DNA from: Oscillatoriales cyanobacterium
Lineage (GTDB): Bacteria; Cyanobacteriota; Cyanobacteriia; Cyanobacteriales; Microcoleaceae
Length of the DNA stretch: 64,000 nt
Assembly: GCA_004292955.1 (NCBI GenBank)
Contig: RDXX01000019.1
Location: 1-64,000 of the forward strand
Direction of reading: 5' to 3'
Part shown: positions 4,727 to 11,176 of the stretch, piece by piece
How positions within the stretch are numbered: position 1 is the stretch's first letter
Layout of the letters: every line of letters starts with the position of its first letter
Translations under genes and position numbers: made by a program
Notes under the pieces: model-generated
Told to the model about the DNA's origin: nothing
Databases searched by the model: none
Seen by the model: only the letters and a program-made list of their open reading frames with translations

Positions 4727-4943
4727 CTGGCAGTTTACAGAAATATGGGTTGACCCTACCTCTGTCCCTCCTTATGTTTTGATGTTGCTCGGTGATGATA
4801 AAAATAATTTTTGCATTTTCGACCCGACTGAAGACTATAAGATTGTTTTTGCTTGTTCTAGCTATGAGGAAGCAAGGCTTTGGCTGCTTGAAGATGAATA
4901 TGAGCGGGTTGAAGGGCGGCTCAATGTTGAGCAAGTGGCTTAA
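4695..4943 (+). CDS. Small acidic partner protein overlapping the preceding gene
   Basis: 82 residues, acidic, no recognised family. The ATG lies inside the preceding gene in another frame (32-base overlap), a layout typical of two-gene modules whose products bind each other. The sequence is rich in aromatic and acidic residues (FDPTEDYKIVF, WLLEDEYERVEG), resembling small binding or immunity proteins, but that is inference from layout only. A HicB-type gene starts 10 bases after the stop. Confidence 0.65.
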   Translation: MSSPVPNLANNWQFTEIWVDPTSVPPYVLMLLGDDKNNFCIFDPTEDYKIVFACSSYEEARLWLLEDEYERVEGRLNVEQVA

Positions 4944-4953
4944 GTTATTGATG

Positions 4954-5328
4954 ATGAAAGTCAATTTTAAATCTCTAGATTATTACTTGAGCCTGAAATA
5001 TCCTATCAGTTTTTATCCAGAATCTGAAGGTTATACAGTGATAATCAAAGACCTTCCTGGTTGTATGTCTCAGGGTGAAACTTTATCGGAAGCGAGGGAG
5101 AATATTCAGGAAGCTAGGGAACTGTGGATAGAGACTGCTTATGAGTGCGGCGATGAGATTCCTTTACCTACTGCTGATGTTTAGTATAGCGGAAATTTAT
5201 CATTGCAAATTCCAAAATCTCTACACAGGAATTTAGCAGATCGTGCTGAGAGGGAGGGAATGAGTATTGAACAACATATTTTAGCTGTGTTGAGCACTGT
5301 TAATATGTGCTTTAAAAATAGAATTTAG
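4954..5328 (+). pseudogene. HicB-family antitoxin gene interrupted by an in-frame amber codon
   Basis: The first part encodes a classic HicB fold (YPISFYPESEGYTVIIKDLP followed by GCMSQGETLSEARENI). HicB proteins normally continue into a DNA-binding helix-turn-helix or ribbon-helix-helix tail. Here TAG occurs at 5182-5184, but the same frame stays open for 47 further codons and encodes the expected tail (LSLQIPKSLHRNLADRAERE, then GMSIEQHI). The simplest reading is one nonsense mutation in a once-complete antitoxin of about 124 residues. No HicA toxin is present on either side. The last 48 bases overlap the end of the convergent STAND gene. ATG 4951 and ATG 4954 are equally good starts. Confidence 0.8.
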
Positions 5329-6666
5329 CTGAAATTTTGCTGGCTCTTTTCTGGGAACTTTTTCTACTAAACCGCGTCTGGTTAAAGATTGTATAATGTG
5401 CATAAATTTAGCTTGAGATACTTCCATATTAGCAGGTTTTTGGGAAATATCTATCGGTTCATCTTGATTGGCTAACCAGTTTATCACATTTTTTTCTAAT
5501 TCTGATAACCGCTCTAACTGCGATTTTAAATTGGTTTCTATGTCACCTAAAAACAACTCATTTTCATCTGTTAGAAAAAGGGAAACGCTCCCGTTCAATA
5601 ATTCTATAATTATTGAACAAATAATATTTAGCCAAGCCGGATGACTTTGATATAGTGTTATTAATTCATCCCATTTTTCCTCATTTTGTAAATCTTTTTG
5701 TCTCAAGATTTCTTTTGCTTCTTCTCCTAATCCTTGAAGTTGTAATACTCTTGTGTATTTGTTTTCTTTTTCTAAAGTCTCTATTTCTCCAGGTTTTTCC
5801 CAACTAATTAAAATTAAGCAACTCTCATGAGATAAGGTAGCAATTTGCTGAAAAAATTTACAATAATCTTTATAGTCTGTTAAATACTGACCCGCTAAGT
5901 TACCAGTTTTAAAAATATTATGCACGTCATCAAGGATTACTAAACAACGAGATGAGCGAAAATAATTTATTATGTCTGGTAATGGATTTGCGTGGGATTG
6001 AGAAAAAAACTGTTTAAGTTCATCTTTAAGGTCGATCAGTTTAGGCAAATGCTCAAGACTGCGATAAATAATATAATCAAATGGTGTGTTAACTTCTGAG
6101 ATTAATTTCAGAGTTAAAGCTGTTTTTCCGATACCACTCAATCCATAAATTGTAATTAATCTAGTCTTATCTTTTAAAATCCATTCTTTAAGAGTATAAA
6201 CTTCTGAATTACGCCCGTAATTATAGTTTAATTCTGGTGCTGTTGTTAGATCGATGATTGGGAGTTGATTTTGGACTTGGGAAGAGGGCGATCGCTTTTC
6301 TATATCCTCTAAAGATTGAGGATTTTCTCTACAAATATTAACATGATTTTTATTAATGTTATGATTACTAATAATCAACGAAGAATTACCAAAACTGTAG
6401 ATAGTAGAACCAGCTTTATTTTCTAAAATAGAACGAACATTCTTTTGTTCAATCTCTTCTGAAAAAACATCGGAGAGAAGTTTCCATAATTTTGCTCCCT
6501 CTCTTTTAACATGATCGTAACTATAACCATTATTTCCCGCAATTTTATGAAAATTTTGACGTTGTAAAACACTTTCTAATATAGATTTGTGCAAAGAATC
6601 AAGATGTTGCCCTGTTTTATCGAATACCTGTTCATCAGTCCATTTTGACAATTCTTTAACGTCCAT
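5281..6666 (-). CDS. Short STAND-type NTPase (vMAP-like N-terminus plus NB-ARC)
   Basis: 461 residues. Residues 1-80 resemble the helical N-terminal domain of cyanobacterial vMAP/NB-ARC proteins (LESVLQRQNFHKIAGNNGYS, then DHVKREGAKLWKLLSD). The NB-ARC-like NTPase follows from about residue 145 with Walker A GLSGIGKTAL and Walker B CLVILDDVH. A winged-helix-like segment closes the protein (LSELEKNVINWLA to LVEKVPR). The long WD40 or TPR sensor array that usually follows in this family is absent. Proteins of this class act as signalling or defence switches; the role here is inference. AT-rich codon use and neighbouring broken or accessory genes suggest transferred DNA. Confidence 0.85.
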   Translation of the reverse strand: MDVKELSKWTDEQVFDKTGQHLDSLHKSILESVLQRQNFHKIAGNNGYSYDHVKREGAKLWKLLSDVFSEEIEQKNVRSILENKAGSTIYSFGNSSLIISNHNINKNHVNICRENPQSLEDIEKRSPSSQVQNQLPIIDLTTAPELNYNYGRNSEVYTLKEWILKDKTRLITIYGLSGIGKTALTLKLISEVNTPFDYIIYRSLEHLPKLIDLKDELKQFFSQSHANPLPDIINYFRSSRCLVILDDVHNIFKTGNLAGQYLTDYKDYCKFFQQIATLSHESCLILISWEKPGEIETLEKENKYTRVLQLQGLGEEAKEILRQKDLQNEEKWDELITLYQSHPAWLNIICSIIIELLNGSVSLFLTDENELFLGDIETNLKSQLERLSELEKNVINWLANQDEPIDISQKPANMEVSQAKFMHIIQSLTRRGLVEKVPRKEPAKFQLNSIFKAHINSAQHS

Positions 6667-6880
6667 ATATTTTTAACCTCACTCAATCTTTTTAGTTTAG
6701 CCACCAAAACCCACTTTTTGCCACGAAAAGTTAAGTTGTGTAAAATGTCACTAAAGATTAGCACCCAATGACACTATATCACACCAAGTCCCTATATCAA
6801 TTTTCCTACTAAATGCCACTCCAGTCTAAAAATTAGAAAGTACAATTTTAAATGTTAATTATTTTTCAAAAATAAATCAC

Positions 6881-7132
6881 ATGAAAACACAAACCTTGAA
6901 TAGACCTGCAAGTTCAGTGCCTTTCACTCTAAGTTTTGTAGAGAGACTCGACCCAGCATTGTACGATCAAGCGATTCAGGATTCAGAAGTCCTAAAACAA
7001 TCCTATGATCCGAAAACTCAAACATCGAATATTCCTGTTTCTGCTAATGATGGTACTTCCTTGACATATCGTGATACTCTTAGCGGTTTTCTTAATGCTT
7101 CTACAGATGATGCGGAACAATCTGATACTTAA
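6881..7132 (+). CDS. Putative graspetide (ATP-grasp RiPP) precursor peptide
   Basis: 83 residues, hydrophilic, no transmembrane segment. The leader contains VPFTLSFVERL (13-23), which recalls the PFFARFLE recognition helix of microviridin-type precursors, followed by a YDPKTQ motif (42-47). The C-terminal ~25 residues are rich in Thr/Ser and Asp/Glu (TYRDTLSGFLNASTDDAEQ), the residue types joined by ATP-grasp ligases as ester or amide macrocycles. It lacks the TxKxPSD core of true microviridins and has no Lys in the C-terminal part, so ester (lactone) rings are more likely than lactams. A gene for a matching ligase lies 203 bases downstream on the same strand. Confidence 0.7.
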   Translation: MKTQTLNRPASSVPFTLSFVERLDPALYDQAIQDSEVLKQSYDPKTQTSNIPVSANDGTSLTYRDTLSGFLNASTDDAEQSDT

Positions 7133-7192
7133 AGCAGACAGTGGCATTAGTTGAAAACCACGGGCTTTCTGTATCAAACAACATTGATTATA

Positions 7193-7227
7193 CGGTACGG
7201 TAGGGTGCGAAGCATTCTATCGTACCG
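7193..7227 (+). repeat. 16-bp RNA hairpin between RiPP precursor and ligase genes
   Basis: Arms 7193-7208 and 7212-7227 pair over 16 positions around a GAA loop. The three non-Watson-Crick positions are all G-U pairs on the plus-strand transcript, and the apex GCGAAGC is an exceptionally stable mini-hairpin. There is no T tract after it, so a processing or attenuation element, or an interspersed palindromic repeat, is more likely than a full terminator. Confidence 0.75.
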
Positions 7228-7335
7228 CTTTAAGCTGTTAGCTATCGTAAGTAGTAAAATCCTGATTTGGATACCGCAGAAAGATCAATCAACCAACATA
7301 TCTGATTACCCCAAAACGAGATTACAAATTAAAAT

Positions 7336-8307
7336 ATGATATTAATTTTTACGAACAAGCAGGATACACACACTGATGAAGTTATCAGAAAACTACATAA
7401 AAAAGGTATTGAAGTTTTTAGGTTGAATTCAGAAGATTTGCTTCGGAAATATCAGGTAAATCTTTACATTGATGAAAATGGTTTATGGAATGGAGAGATT
7501 ACTGACGAACTTGGTAGAATATTAAATTTAGCCAAACTAAAAGTAGCATGGTTGAGAAAACCTGACTTTGATTTTTTTGGGAAAATTGATCAATCTACAG
7601 AACAACAGTTTATAGCTTCAGAAACAAAAGCTTTTATCAATATACTATATTCTATACCCAGCATAAGATGGATAAACGATCCATTTATCGCCAATAAAGC
7701 GAAAGTAAAATTTCAACAACTTTTACTGGCTAATAAATACGGGGTCAAAATCCCTAAAACACTGATAACCACCCAGCCAGAAACAGCCAAAGAGTTTTTC
7801 ATAGAGTGCGGAGAAGAGGTTTTAGTTAAAACCATTTATACTGGAAATGTGACGATCGATGGGCTCAATCAAGGAATAGCGTCAAGAAAGATTGGCAAAG
7901 ATGATTTTTATAAATTCTATAAAAACATTTCTTTATCACCTACTCAATTGCAAGAATATATCGAAAAAGCTTTTGAATTAAGGATTACAATTATTGGTAA
8001 AAAGGTATTTGCCGTTAAAATTGATTCACAAGCCCATGAAGAGACCAAAATTGATTGGCGACTCCATACTCAAATTAATCCACATTCTATCTTTGAACTA
8101 CCGGCAAAAATAGAAAAATTCTGCATCGATTTTTTGGAGGAGCAAAAACTATTATATGGGGCGATGGATTTTATTGTGACTCCCAACAATGAATATGTGT
8201 TTTTAGAAAATAATCCTTTTGGTCAATACCTTTGGCTAGAAATAGAAACAAAAATACCATTGACGGAAGAGATTTGTAATTTATTAATAAACTATCTTGA
8301 TGCTTGA
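7336..8307 (+). CDS. ATP-grasp ribosomal peptide maturase (MvdC/MvdD-like)
   Basis: 323 residues, the usual length of RiPP-type ATP-grasp ligases. These enzymes activate side-chain carboxylates of a precursor peptide as acyl phosphates and form macrocyclic esters or amides with Thr, Ser or Lys. Diagnostic stretches are KVAWLRKPDF near residue 75, the central WINDPFIANKAKVKFQQLL and KIPKTLITTQPETA, DWRLH near 245, and the metal- and ATP-binding C-terminus MDFIVTPN with ENNPFGQYLWLE. No transporter or acetyltransferase gene follows, so export and trimming would have to come from elsewhere. Codon use is AT-rich, as in the neighbouring STAND gene. Confidence 0.9.
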   Translation: MILIFTNKQDTHTDEVIRKLHKKGIEVFRLNSEDLLRKYQVNLYIDENGLWNGEITDELGRILNLAKLKVAWLRKPDFDFFGKIDQSTEQQFIASETKAFINILYSIPSIRWINDPFIANKAKVKFQQLLLANKYGVKIPKTLITTQPETAKEFFIECGEEVLVKTIYTGNVTIDGLNQGIASRKIGKDDFYKFYKNISLSPTQLQEYIEKAFELRITIIGKKVFAVKIDSQAHEETKIDWRLHTQINPHSIFELPAKIEKFCIDFLEEQKLLYGAMDFIVTPNNEYVFLENNPFGQYLWLEIETKIPLTEEICNLLINYLDA

Positions 8308-8482
8308 TTACTGTTTTTTGGGCTTCGCCCTTCCAGTGCAGGGTAAGAGCATCTCAATCATGCTCGATCGCCCTTTCCCCCAACCTTTGCAGAATCCCAG
8401 CCTACACGCCCGCAACACGATCGCCCAAAACGCCGCCTATAATCAAAACTAGCCCCAAAATCTCATCAATTGACGAACCGCC

Positions 8483-9541
8483 ATGAGTCGAGACAGCGAA
8501 AAAATCAGCTATTCAGAGAAAACAGAACGTCTCAAAGTCATCACCCAGTTTATCAAAACCGTGACGCCGATGATTTGGACAGTTGTAATTATAGTAGTCA
8601 TCATTCCCCTACTAGGCAACTTTCTCATCTCCCAGTCGCTAACAAATACGGCAACCACAACCGTTGTAGTCTCACCGCCCCACGACTTCAGCAAAGTCAA
8701 CCAAGACATTAAAAACGCCATCCAAAAAGCCAATACAACAGCCGAGGCTTTCGCATCAAAAGAATTGGACAAATGGGAAACCGAAGTAATAGCACGAGTA
8801 GACAACAGCTTCCTCGATTGGTACTTCGATTACTTCAACCAAAAAAAGATGGAGTTTACAGTACCTTTCAACTTCGTCAAATCCGCCGTACTCAACCGAT
8901 TTGACATGACAGCAGCATCTCGCGCTGTTTCCGAAAAATTAACAGAAGACTTCCAAAGAGAATTTGCTAACCGCGTGCTGGTTCCCAAAAATGCTCAATT
9001 GAAATTTCAATTAATCACTCAAGATACTGCTAACTTGTACATAGCCGAAGTCAGCAAAAATGTCAAAGTAGTTCAAAACAACTATAACATCCCACAAGTA
9101 CAGTGGGACAAATATCTGAACGACATTGCCACCACAATTAGCGACAAAGGAAACGTCTCAAATTTATCATTAAAAGTATTAGTTGGCGGCAGCGGTTACT
9201 TAATTGCTAAACCATTAATATTGGGAGTAGCAACCAAAGTCGGCAGCAAAGTTACAGCAAAAGTTGCCAGCAAAGCCGCCGCCAAAATAGCAACAAAAAC
9301 AGGCGGTACAGTTGCAAGTCAGCTAGGAGTAGGTTTAATCGACCCGATTGTCGGTGTCGGGATTATCATGTGGGATTTGTGGGATTACAATCATACAGTC
9401 ACAATAGAAAGACCAATTTTGCGCGAACACCTTGTAAGTTACTTGAAAGATGTCAAAAAATCCCTGTTAACCAATCCTGAAACTGGAATTATGGCAGCGA
9501 TTTATCAATTAGAAAGTGGCATTTTAAAGTCACTTTCCTAG
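8483..9541 (+). CDS. Membrane-anchored protein of unknown function
   Basis: 352 residues, not recognised. A single strong transmembrane segment lies at about residues 29-51 (WTVVIIVVIIPLLGNFLI) after a short charged N-terminus. A long mainly helical, hydrophilic region follows (55-230). Residues 231-300 are rich in Gly, Ala and Lys with an amphipathic AKVASKAAAKIATK stretch and a hydrophobic GLIDPIVGVGIIMWDLW segment that could re-enter the membrane. It stands alone between the RiPP locus and a convergent acyltransferase-like gene. Confidence 0.8.
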   Translation: MSRDSEKISYSEKTERLKVITQFIKTVTPMIWTVVIIVVIIPLLGNFLISQSLTNTATTTVVVSPPHDFSKVNQDIKNAIQKANTTAEAFASKELDKWETEVIARVDNSFLDWYFDYFNQKKMEFTVPFNFVKSAVLNRFDMTAASRAVSEKLTEDFQREFANRVLVPKNAQLKFQLITQDTANLYIAEVSKNVKVVQNNYNIPQVQWDKYLNDIATTISDKGNVSNLSLKVLVGGSGYLIAKPLILGVATKVGSKVTAKVASKAAAKIATKTGGTVASQLGVGLIDPIVGVGIIMWDLWDYNHTVTIERPILREHLVSYLKDVKKSLLTNPETGIMAAIYQLESGILKSLS

Positions 9542-9685: not shown

Positions 9686-11176
9686 TCACGTCCTCAAAAA
9701 CAGTTTCAACCTCGTAAATACCACCACAATTAACGCTAAAATCGCCGTATATCCAAAGCCCCTCAAAAAACCCATAAACGGATCGGTGGAAGTCATCTCA
9801 ATAATCACAGGTTCCCATTCATTTAACACCAGAATCGGCCAGATAATATTGGCAAATCCCGCATACCCAATCATCGGATTCACCCCGTTATCAATAAACA
9901 ACTGCAAAAAGCATCTCTTCTGAAACACATCGATAATTATCGTCAACCCAATTAACAGAAAAATCGCCATTCCAGTCGTTACAAAAAAGTAACTCATCGT
10001 CGCCGAATCTTTCTTAATTCCGCCTTCATAAGGCTCAAATAGCAAACCCAGAACCAGCCAATAAAAACCCCATTTGTAAAGACGGTTCAAGACATTTTCC
10101 GTGACATTCCGAGGCTTGCTCAACAAAAGCAAACCGCACAAACACAGTACCACCGTCACTAAGGTCGTCTGCCACACCAATCTAGATTGCAGTCCAACTA
10201 ACAAAACTAAATTGACAGCAAACATCAAAATCATAATGCTAAAATAGCGCCAACTTTTCCAGCTAGCATAAATCGCCTCTTCCGGCGAACGATACTCTAT
10301 CCACCTTGCAAGTAAATCTCCAACAATCGTACCAGGAATCACTACAAACAAATACTTTAAATAATCAAATTGAAACAGCCAAGGTGCAGGAGAGTACAGC
10401 CAAATAGACTGAATCCAACCATCAGTATGAGAAGACATCCGCGCTGCCAACAGCAAACCCAAAAATCCTACTCGCATCCACACATTTGAACGAGTAAACA
10501 GCCAAATTATCGATCCGAAAACCGCCACATTTGCCAGTACCATCAAGATAATATCGTTGCGTTCAAAAGAAATTCCCCTACCATCGGGATATTTGATATG
10601 AGAGATGAAGCTAATCCCGGCACTCCAACCAGCAACTGTCATCCCTCGCCACAGCCAAGTTGACCATTTTTGTGGCCAGCGAACGTACATTAAAAATAAT
10701 AGAAAAAAACCGCACAAAGCCAGCCACCACTTTTGTGGGCTGGGTTCGTCTGGATTAATTGTAGTCGGGCGAATGTGCTGGAGAAATATCGCAAATGATG
10801 CTAACAAAAAGCCTCTTTGCAAAATAGAGAATATTACTTTTTTAAAATCCCCTCCCTTGGCGATGCGGCGCGACAAAGCTAGCGGTATCGCGGCGCCCAT
10901 TGCAAACAAAAAGAAGGGGAAAACTAAGTCAACCCAGGTTAATCCTGGCAGTTTGTTATTGAAAATATGGTCTGGTGGTGGTAATTGGGCGTGATACATC
11001 CACGCTGGTAAGGTTTTGCGGGCTATTGTACCTGATAAAACCATTGCTAATACTGCTAGTCCGCGCAGCGCATCCAGTGCGTCGGCGCGTTGGGAAACGG
11101 CAGCAATTGCTAAGGGTTTTTGGTTTTCGATGCTATTTTGTGATTCCGATGTTGCGTGTTCCAATGCACTCACCAA
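9686..11176 (-). CDS. Polytopic DUF5009 / acyltransferase-like membrane protein
   Basis: 496 residues with about eleven or twelve hydrophobic segments. The N-terminus ADALDALRGLAVLAMVLSG and the following LTWVDLVFPFFLFAMGAAIP match the family that includes heparan-alpha-glucosaminide N-acetyltransferase-like and DUF5009 proteins. In bacteria these are thought to transfer acyl groups to sugars across the membrane; the substrate is unknown. It lies 33 bases downstream of a NodB-type deacetylase on the same strand, consistent with a shared job in modifying a surface polysaccharide. Confidence 0.85.
   Translation of the reverse strand: MVSALEHATSESQNSIENQKPLAIAAVSQRADALDALRGLAVLAMVLSGTIARKTLPAWMYHAQLPPPDHIFNNKLPGLTWVDLVFPFFLFAMGAAIPLALSRRIAKGGDFKKVIFSILQRGFLLASFAIFLQHIRPTTINPDEPSPQKWWLALCGFFLLFLMYVRWPQKWSTWLWRGMTVAGWSAGISFISHIKYPDGRGISFERNDIILMVLANVAVFGSIIWLFTRSNVWMRVGFLGLLLAARMSSHTDGWIQSIWLYSPAPWLFQFDYLKYLFVVIPGTIVGDLLARWIEYRSPEEAIYASWKSWRYFSIMILMFAVNLVLLVGLQSRLVWQTTLVTVVLCLCGLLLLSKPRNVTENVLNRLYKWGFYWLVLGLLFEPYEGGIKKDSATMSYFFVTTGMAIFLLIGLTIIIDVFQKRCFLQLFIDNGVNPMIGYAGFANIIWPILVLNEWEPVIIEMTSTDPFMGFLRGFGYTAILALIVVVFTRLKLFLRT

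Follow-up and report, generated by a model that had tools for sequence, protein, structure and literature searches.

The first 64,000 nucleotides of contig RDXX01000019.1 from an Oscillatoriales cyanobacterium (hereafter the window) contain a graspetide locus that is probably a three-gene cassette gated by a STAND NTPase. A precursor gene and an ATP-grasp ligase gene face away from the gene of an NLR-like regulator that combines a helix-turn-helix (HTH) and an NB-ARC domain, and the region between the two sides carries direct repeats with a ten-base pitch. The genes and their conservation, the repeats, the link between repeats and regulator family, and the presence of the three-gene block in different surroundings all come directly from the computation. 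A first-pass annotation of this DNA had described a two-gene locus, with neither the divergent gene (5281-6666) nor the repeats (6700-6819). Because the divergence is conserved in relatives, the repeats are present and the block 5295-8337 recurs in other surroundings in another genome (G006), we instead describe the locus as three genes with an operator-like array. Its features are as follows.

6881-7132, plus strand: graspetide precursor, 83 residues, ATG start (open reading frame (ORF) list; 58 homologues; ratio of nonsynonymous to synonymous change (dN/dS) <1 in 7/7 comparisons)
7336-8307, plus strand: ATP-grasp ligase, 323 residues, ATG start (TIGR04187 250 bits, MvdC 184, MvdD 175; ATP-grasp relatives in the PDB)
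7133-7335, plus strand: precursor-ligase spacer, 203 bases (putative imperfect hairpin GGTACGGTAG...CTATCGTACC, by eye)
5281-6666, minus strand: HTH-NB-ARC (STAND, NLR-like) regulator, 461 residues, divergent from the precursor
6397-6666, minus strand: N-terminal HTH-like domain of the regulator, residues 1-90 (homology to the stand-alone 164-residue protein of a second graspetide locus)
5752-6204, minus strand: NB-ARC NTPase domain of the regulator, residues 155-305 (Pfam PF00931; profile match to the plant NLR Sr35, E 3.6e-7)
6667-6880, no strand assigned: divergent intergenic region, 214 bases (five-genome alignment; conserved blocks at the repeats)
6700-6729, plus strand: three direct ten-base units GCCACCAAAA CCCACTTTTT GCCACGAAAA (C[CTG]AC at 6701, 6711 and 6721; conserved; family-wide enrichment)
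6770-6784, plus strand: degenerate pair GACAC-N5-CACAC (read from the sequence; block ACTATATCACAC in 5/5 aligned genomes)
6805-6819, plus strand: pair CCTAC-N5-GCCAC (C[CTG]AC at 6806 and 6816; block largely conserved in five genomes)
7004-7030, plus strand: YDPKTQTSN block of the precursor, residues 42-50 (common to the precursors of families A and B; near-invariant in a 20-sequence A+B alignment)
7040-7129, plus strand: predicted core, residues 54-83 (donors T59, T62 and T66; variable loop 67-75; acceptors D76, D77 and D82; from conservation and entropy)
5295-8337, no strand assigned: whole cassette of regulator, repeat array, precursor and ligase, about 3.04 kb (blastn against relatives)

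A divergent regulator in four graspetide lineages

A full-length precursor of the window's family (family A) was found in 7/388 genomes searched, and a family A ligase lies alongside in all seven, which is the recurrent pairing on which the first-pass annotation had staked its claim. A match in G177 (31%, two stops) and weak matches in G062, G087 and G358 were treated as chance, and a profile scan of genome contigs with the precursor alignment, in which 29 pattern matches yielded two confirmed loci, was replaced by whole-genome searches. Upstream of the precursor, all seven genomes have a divergent gene. It encodes an HTH-NB-ARC protein in six of them (the window's own genome, G004, G006, G183, G195 and G065), the G065 protein being 29% identical to the window's with an NB-ARC score of 20.9 bits, below the cut-off. 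At the seventh locus, L058, a GerE-AAA-TPR_MalT (LuxR/MalT-like) protein stands in the regulator's place. The precursor and ligase ORFs of the window are separated by the 203 bases originally described, and this spacer measures 198-212 bases in 4/7 family A loci and 225-338 in G004, G195 and G333. The putative hairpin formed by GGTACGGTAG and CTATCGTACC within it may set the ratio of precursor to ligase expression.

Searching the window's own genome (7.29 Mb in 163 contigs) with the ligase recovered a second ligase, 29% identical, on contig C149, with an upstream 72-residue precursor that bears YDPSTQTSN and a DDDQQEDD tail and belongs to a second family (B). The family A profile reaches family B through about residues 40-80 alone, a search with the family B precursor returned 54 proteins, and the two families have YDPxTQTSN in common and little else. 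A stand-alone HTH protein of 160-186 residues occurs in 9/9 family B loci with upstream sequence present, and the N-terminus of the window regulator aligns with the 164-residue one of its own genome at 36% identity over 123 residues (E 2e-21). An order-wide search found a ligase match at E 1e-30 or better in 96/388 genomes, revealing two further lineages, C (L078, L079, L080, L083) and D (L081, L082, L084), with a divergent HTH gene and a precursor containing YNPxxQ (SYNPVFQ in L079). In lineage D, precursor and ligase are also separated by a gene with weak GNAT similarity (one example scanned, below the cut-off). Across these four ligase lineages, a regulator homologue or its L058 replacement is divergent from the precursor in 23/23 examined loci. 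With duplicates (L100, L101, L103, L108, L110), contig-end loci (L055, L065) and L058, which has no HTH-NB-ARC gene, dropped from the count, the HTH gene diverges from its neighbour in 22/22 HTH-linked graspetide loci, at a spacing of 196-219 bases in 17/22 as called. No HTH or STAND gene was called within about 1.5 kb on each side of the ligase in 15 further loci (L085-L099), eight of which visibly contain PFFARFL (PFFERYL in L094); a 386-residue ORF in L086 partially matches residues 99-160 of the HTH-only protein, outside the HTH (E 7e-4), and was treated as chance.

Recurrence of the cassette in other surroundings

Matches at E 1e-60 or better to the gene downstream of the cassette (8483-9541) occur in 27/29 genomes of the genus, and 19 of these loci were compared with the window's first 12 kb. 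Two of them are free of the cassette by blastn: in G023 (L156) the matches to 5294 and 8374 are separated by 165 bases, and in G002 (L147) those to 5188 and 8374 by 157 bases. Both flanks are present in G027 (L155), separated by about 1.1 kb of other sequence, G004 (L139) carries the cassette, and the other 15/19 have no left-flank match in the fetched stretch and no cassette adjoining the downstream gene. In G006 (L060), the block 5295-8337 is 93% identical but is surrounded by other genes, with no window match on either side. The regulator's stop codon lies just outside this shared block, in flanking DNA just past a HicB-like gene (4792-5184) whose reading frame seems to run on in the cassette-free loci. 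A search for terminal repeats at the cassette gave chance-like pairs only. From these alignments, we consider it very likely that the three genes form one cassette that can move as a block.

Ligase and precursor

Profiles, PDB matches and a phylogenetic tree all place the ligase in the graspetide synthetase ATP-grasp superfamily. Its scores fall below every curated cut-off (TIGR04187 250/350 bits, MvdC 184/425, MvdD 175/475), while its MvdD pre-ATP-grasp domain reaches 34.8 bits against a Pfam cut-off of 27. Five PDB ATP-grasp chains (CdnC, 5ig9, 5ig8, AMdnB and 9bou) match by sequence at E 2e-35 to 6e-28, and the ELR, DWR, GAxD and ExN blocks are kept, by eye, in four of the alignments. In a maximum-likelihood tree of 55 ligases, a 98/94 branch separates the 24 rows of lineages A-D from 22 ligases of microviridin type, five TgmB and four others. 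The tree is rooted by midpoint and carries a tool warning that long branches come together in places. The earlier label “MvdC/MvdD-like” is too narrow: the tree puts the ligase together with three other cyanobacterial lineages linked to HTH genes and away from the microviridin-type and TgmB enzymes. PHROGs assigns the ligase to phrog_2599, “ribosomal protein S6 glutaminyl transferase” (E 3.6e-22), a broad RimK-like label, and PADLOC returned no match for it. A decayed family A ligase copy, 94% identical with an internal stop, is present elsewhere (L077, G037:C1:805056-805691), with neither precursor nor regulator within the 3.6 kb fetched.

A search of about 5.8 billion proteins gave the precursor 58 homologues at E <= 0.01; those that carry a name come from Microcoleus, Tychonema, Limnospira, Oscillatoria, Laspinema, Aerosakkonema and Anabaena PCC 7108, which makes a Microcoleus relative the probable host. 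The precursor matches nothing in Pfam or NCBIfam, and a search of plasmids with it found no match. A comparison with TIGR04186-type precursors had been proposed; the window precursor gave no match to that profile, 1/27 family A alignment members matched at E 0.11, and nothing in the window's own genome matched at E <= 1, which rules out membership in TIGR04186. The sequence contains the PFTLSFVERL leader, the YDPKTQ motif and the Thr/Ser/Asp/Glu-rich tail just as first noted. Positions P14, F15, Y28, A31, I32, S35, L38, Y42, P44, T46-S49 and N50 are invariant over the 58 sequences; within YDPxTQTSN, Y42, P44, T46, Q47, T48, S49 and N50 occur in 58/58 and D43 in 57/58. Five actinobacterial tgmA peptides encoded beside tgmB carry a similar block (LDPVTQ in L072, YDPDRQ in L071 and YDxxRQ in three), and the YDPxTQ-type block may be an old recognition element.

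The tail combines fixed positions with a variable loop. Ser or Thr occupies positions 59, 62 and 66 in 58/58 precursors, Asp77 and Asp82 are present in 58/58 and Asp76 in 56/58. Mean column entropy is 0.25 bits at 42-53, 0.77 at 54-66, 2.01 at 67-75 and 0.66 at 76-83, and 52 of the 58 loops are distinct, with lengths of eight (n=43), nine (n=10), seven (n=3) or five (n=2) residues. The precursor evolves under constraint, with a dN/dS of 0.15-0.63 in seven comparisons; for the ligase the ratio is 0.09-0.15 in six. When the window precursor was compared with those of six genomes, core dN exceeded leader dN in 7/7 comparisons (e.g. 0.41 against 0.14 for G195), while synonymous change was similar (pS 0.28-0.80 in the core, 0.21-0.65 in the leader). 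This variation is the pattern of a putative recognition part that is conserved and a core shaped like a stem and loop. The G065 locus (L059) has two family A precursors flanking the ligase gene, one on each side, with similar leaders and different loops. Their leader dN is 0.08 and their core dN 0.52, which is weak evidence because core synonymous change is also higher, and saturated.

Taken with the superfamily placement of the ligase, the adjoining precursor with conserved Ser/Thr donor and Asp acceptor positions across 58 relatives leaves us highly confident that this is a graspetide ligase and its precursor. The core is of an uncharacterised type and is not that of a microviridin: the precursor sequence contains neither the TxKxPSD core nor the PFFARFL leader (PMC8939145). 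The first-pass annotation was correct in proposing a graspetide-type pair with a non-microviridin core. It had also reasoned that a tail with no Lys should form ester rings of a different topology. The absence of Lys is true of the window, but a single Lys occurs somewhere in positions 58-75 of 33/58 relatives, making the argument weak for the family; ester rings of another topology are nonetheless probable, since the invariant donor positions are Ser or Thr. From these invariant Ser/Thr and Asp residues, two or three nested ester rings are about an even prospect, two being argued as the minimum because two sequences lack Asp76. Fuscimiditide has esters joining Thr3 to Asp22 and Thr7 to Asp18 around a ten-residue loop (PMC12291112). 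By analogy, the inner ring here might join Thr66 to Asp77 (or Asp76) and the outer ring Thr62 or Thr59 to Asp82, with three rings at most, a connectivity to which we would give even odds.

The regulator and its ten-base repeats

The NB-ARC domain of the regulator scores above its Pfam cut-off (PF00931), and profile and fold matches agree in making the protein a STAND NTPase. Structural matches include 8bob_C (E 4.3e-6), a chain from a maltose-system regulator entry and presumably MalT itself. Predicted HTH helices span residues 23-33, 38-45 and 49-67, with predicted local distance difference test (pLDDT) values of about 90. With E values of up to 10 admitted, the HTH of 14 members gave weak Pfam matches to Sigma70_r4 (6/14, best E 0.0027), HTH_23 (4/14, 0.003) and GerE (3/14, 0.00056), and hhalign matched the window HTH weakly to the GerE domain of L058, with a probability of 15%. 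Searches of solved structures found nothing credible for either the HTH-only protein or the HTH profile. The C-terminal end is predicted to comprise helices and a short winged-helix-like segment, and Pfam recognised no effector domain in the protein. The GerE HTH and MalT-type TPR sensor that together mark MalT/LAL proteins are absent from the window regulator and present in the L058 protein, for which PADLOC returned HTH-containing CARF models (E 9e-9) and TPR. PHROGs matched the regulator to ATPase families only.

For the repeats, we considered up to 240 bases upstream of HTH genes, read outward, in sets thinned by shared 8-mers; the half-site count in 29 non-redundant regions also dropped L111, L116, L119 and L123, where no divergent neighbour was called (L123 has repeats). 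In these 29 regions, pairs of C[CTG]AC at exactly ten bases number 36, against a mean of 0.45 and a maximum of 4 in 200 shuffles, with minor spacing peaks at 19, 20 and 29 bases, and 106 half-sites point from regulator to cargo against 18 in the opposite orientation. At least one pair is present in 17/32 regulator regions but in just 6/157 upstream regions of other genes at the same loci (Fisher P 5e-11), and at least two pairs in 11/32 against 0/157; among graspetide regions of the thinned set, 6/12 have a pair. Identical 5-mers ten bases apart number 108 against 7.4 expected (maximum 24, 200 shuffles), and in the 15 regions that have no C[CTG]AC pair, they still number 36 against 3.35 (maximum 15), so that the half-sites seem to vary from regulator to regulator at a constant pitch. 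The window's repeat blocks are conserved in an alignment of five orthologous regions, two of whose regulators are just 67-69% identical to the window's. L058, with its LuxR/MalT-like regulator, has neither a C[CTG]AC pair nor any 5-mer repeated at ten bases, suggesting from a single case that the repeats go with the regulator and not with the precursor. These patterns make it likely that the regulator acts through the repeats as an operator-like array.

Proposed mechanism and alternatives

We propose that the HTH-NB-ARC protein is a MalT-like STAND switch that would be silent, or repressing, at rest. On sensing a signal, it would bind ATP, multimerise and line up on the ten-base direct repeats, and occupancy of this array between the divergent genes would turn on precursor and ligase. 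The ligase would then recognise the leader through the PFTLSFVERL region, the YDPKTQTSN block or both, and join Thr66, Thr62 and possibly Thr59 to Asp77 (or Asp76) and Asp82 by ester bonds. The product would be a nested stem-loop to which the variable loop, mostly of 8-9 residues, would lend specificity, and housekeeping proteases and exporters would complete its maturation. DNA binding, the direction of control, ring connectivity, export and role are the parts of this scheme that we infer.

Several results weigh against it. No Pfam family matches the HTH domain above its cut-off, and lineage B carries an HTH that is not joined to an NB-ARC, implying that the ATP switch is dispensable in some relatives. 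Of the 32 regulator regions, 15 lack a C[CTG]AC pair; 11 of these 15 have another 5-mer repeated at ten bases, while L111, L116, L119 and L122 have none. The triple pattern is not enriched across the window's own genome (7 matches, against 18 for the backward control); we rejected it as a genome-wide marker of regulator sites and limit the claim to the intergenic regions. A further array on contig C33 adjoins a gene with no recognised HTH. The 23 loci with a divergent regulator share ancestry and are not independent, and in the order-wide ligase search neighbours were examined for the best matches, plus family B loci from the precursor-profile search. As to the C33 locus itself (L130/L133, C33:5441-5523), it has two triple C[CT]AC arrays at a ten-base pitch upstream of the gene in question, which encodes 309 residues.

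The HTH-NB-ARC protein might otherwise be a defence sensor of NLR type that is itself active as an oligomer, with the graspetide as ligand, inhibitor or toxin and the repeats merely autoregulating the pair. We regard this as unlikely, as a sensor of that kind sits poorly with a C-terminus of helices and a short winged-helix-like segment, in which Pfam finds no effector, and with a single weak PADLOC match (PDC-S27, E 0.00089) confined to the NTPase region; moreover, lineage B retains the HTH alone and L058 has a MalT-like regulator instead. That this is an ordinary constitutive graspetide locus with an unrelated STAND gene as neighbour gains something from the sheer abundance of such genes, with a match to the switch at E <= 1e-25 in 177/196 relatives. 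The divergent orientation throughout the four lineages, the narrow spacing, the conserved repeats and the occurrence of the block in two surroundings nevertheless leave this explanation highly improbable.

The ligase could also make something other than intramolecular ester rings, such as Lys amide rings or a linkage to another molecule. ATP-grasp ligases also form amides, and the Lys found in 33/58 relatives would be available for this. However, its position varies, whereas the Ser/Thr positions 59, 62 and 66 and Asp77 and Asp82 are invariant, and the window tail has no Lys at all, so we hold such a product to be very unlikely. A STAND-gated cassette making ester-linked graspetides accordingly remains our preferred reading, at the probable level given at the outset.

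Comparison with known systems

The graspimiditides (group 13, including fuscimiditide and amycolimiditide) resemble our predicted product in having N-terminal Thr donors, a loop, C-terminal Asp acceptors and nested esters (PMC12291112), and the tgmA peptides share a related leader block. In contrast to them, the window locus has no methyltransferase gene alongside by Pfam, its ligase lies outside the TgmB group, the TIGR04186 and TIGR04187 cut-offs are not reached, and the regulator is a STAND protein. Microviridins share the cyanobacterial host and the MvdD pre-ATP-grasp domain, but the leader and core differ, there is one ligase here, its scores are far below the MvdC and MvdD cut-offs, and it falls in a separate tree group.

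MalT/LAL activators likewise combine an HTH with a STAND NTPase, and MalT boxes are direct-repeat sites, as the candidate sites here would be; the 8bob_C match and the GerE-AAA-TPR_MalT replacement in L058 are further likenesses. The window HTH is instead N-terminal and diverged from GerE, no TPR sensor is recognised in the 461 residues, and the C-terminus is short and winged-helix-like. The VMAP/STAND conflict systems of multicellular prokaryotes also use a STAND switch, and vWA and GUN4 cargo occurs beside paralogues of ours. The ternary VMAP systems unite a MoxR ATPase, a vWA protein and VMAP at a single locus; no MoxR or vWA match was found by Pfam among the 14 ORFs scanned between 162 and 15,692. 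The main text of the 2020 description of those systems (PMC7159879) does not contain “ATP-grasp”, “RiPP” or “microviridin”. Sigma factors with NB-ARC and TPR_MalT additions have been described in the literature.

Among regulators of graspetide loci, PMC8939145 includes AcrR, OmpR and a helix-turn-helix fused to DUF5753; it counted same-directon genes only, so a divergent regulator would be missed, and its main text contains neither “HTH” nor “NTPase”. The 2026 survey PMC13097080 gives 21,584 predicted graspetides in 24 earlier and 19 new groups, of which groups 27, 28 and 35 consist of ligase and precursor only. We noticed no report of STAND-linked graspetides in the open-licence literature, which is not proof of novelty.

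Neighbouring genes

As the first-pass annotation had noted, neither a transporter nor an acetyltransferase accompanies the pair, no such family being found by Pfam in the same 14 ORFs. Beyond the cassette, ORF 9686-11176 encodes a membrane protein of the acyltransferase-related DUF5009 family. ORF 1063-2505 encodes a DUF5331 protein of 480 residues with Ala-Pro-Thr repeats and many near-identical acidic repeats of the SDFDMDEDE type.

A wider family of switches

Paralogues of the switch also face other genes. In 25 non-graspetide switch loci, a divergent neighbour is present in 21, at 196-300 bases in 19 of these. A Pfam scan of 17 cargo proteins put names to several (TM2, vWA, DUF3825, radical SAM (two), RTX repeats and GUN4) and gave no credible match for the remainder. 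Two paralogues (L120:1-1263 and L127:1-1249) face genes for a short peptide and a radical SAM protein, making these further RiPP-like loci (RiPP, ribosomally synthesized and post-translationally modified peptide), and close relatives of the switch in L102, L105 and L107 (93%, 85% and 71%) face a gene for a small glycine-rich, membrane-like peptide. The protein encoded downstream of the cassette at 8483-9541 has a homologue (38%, E 2e-66) that is the divergent cargo of another switch (L121).

We suggest, tentatively, that NLR-like HTH-NB-ARC switches may form a large family in filamentous cyanobacteria, every member having a ten-base direct-repeat address of its own and exchangeable divergent cargo. 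The graspetide would have been recruited by an old ligase lineage (A-D) alongside radical-SAM peptides, vWA, GUN4, TM2 and membrane proteins, and the peptide would be an inducible effector in cell-cell or phage conflict rather than a constitutive metabolite, the conflict role being somewhat the more doubtful part. What is new in this picture is the STAND switch, together with its repeat-based address and the swapping of its cargo. If the picture is true, the locus would represent a cyanobacterial graspetide branch with an uncharacterised core pattern and, more importantly, would connect RiPP biosynthesis with an NLR-like switch whose operator is readable. With the repeats as a guide, the cargo of many such switches could be catalogued more easily from sequence, and a short reporter construct would make it testable what STAND switches of bacteria respond to and what they control.
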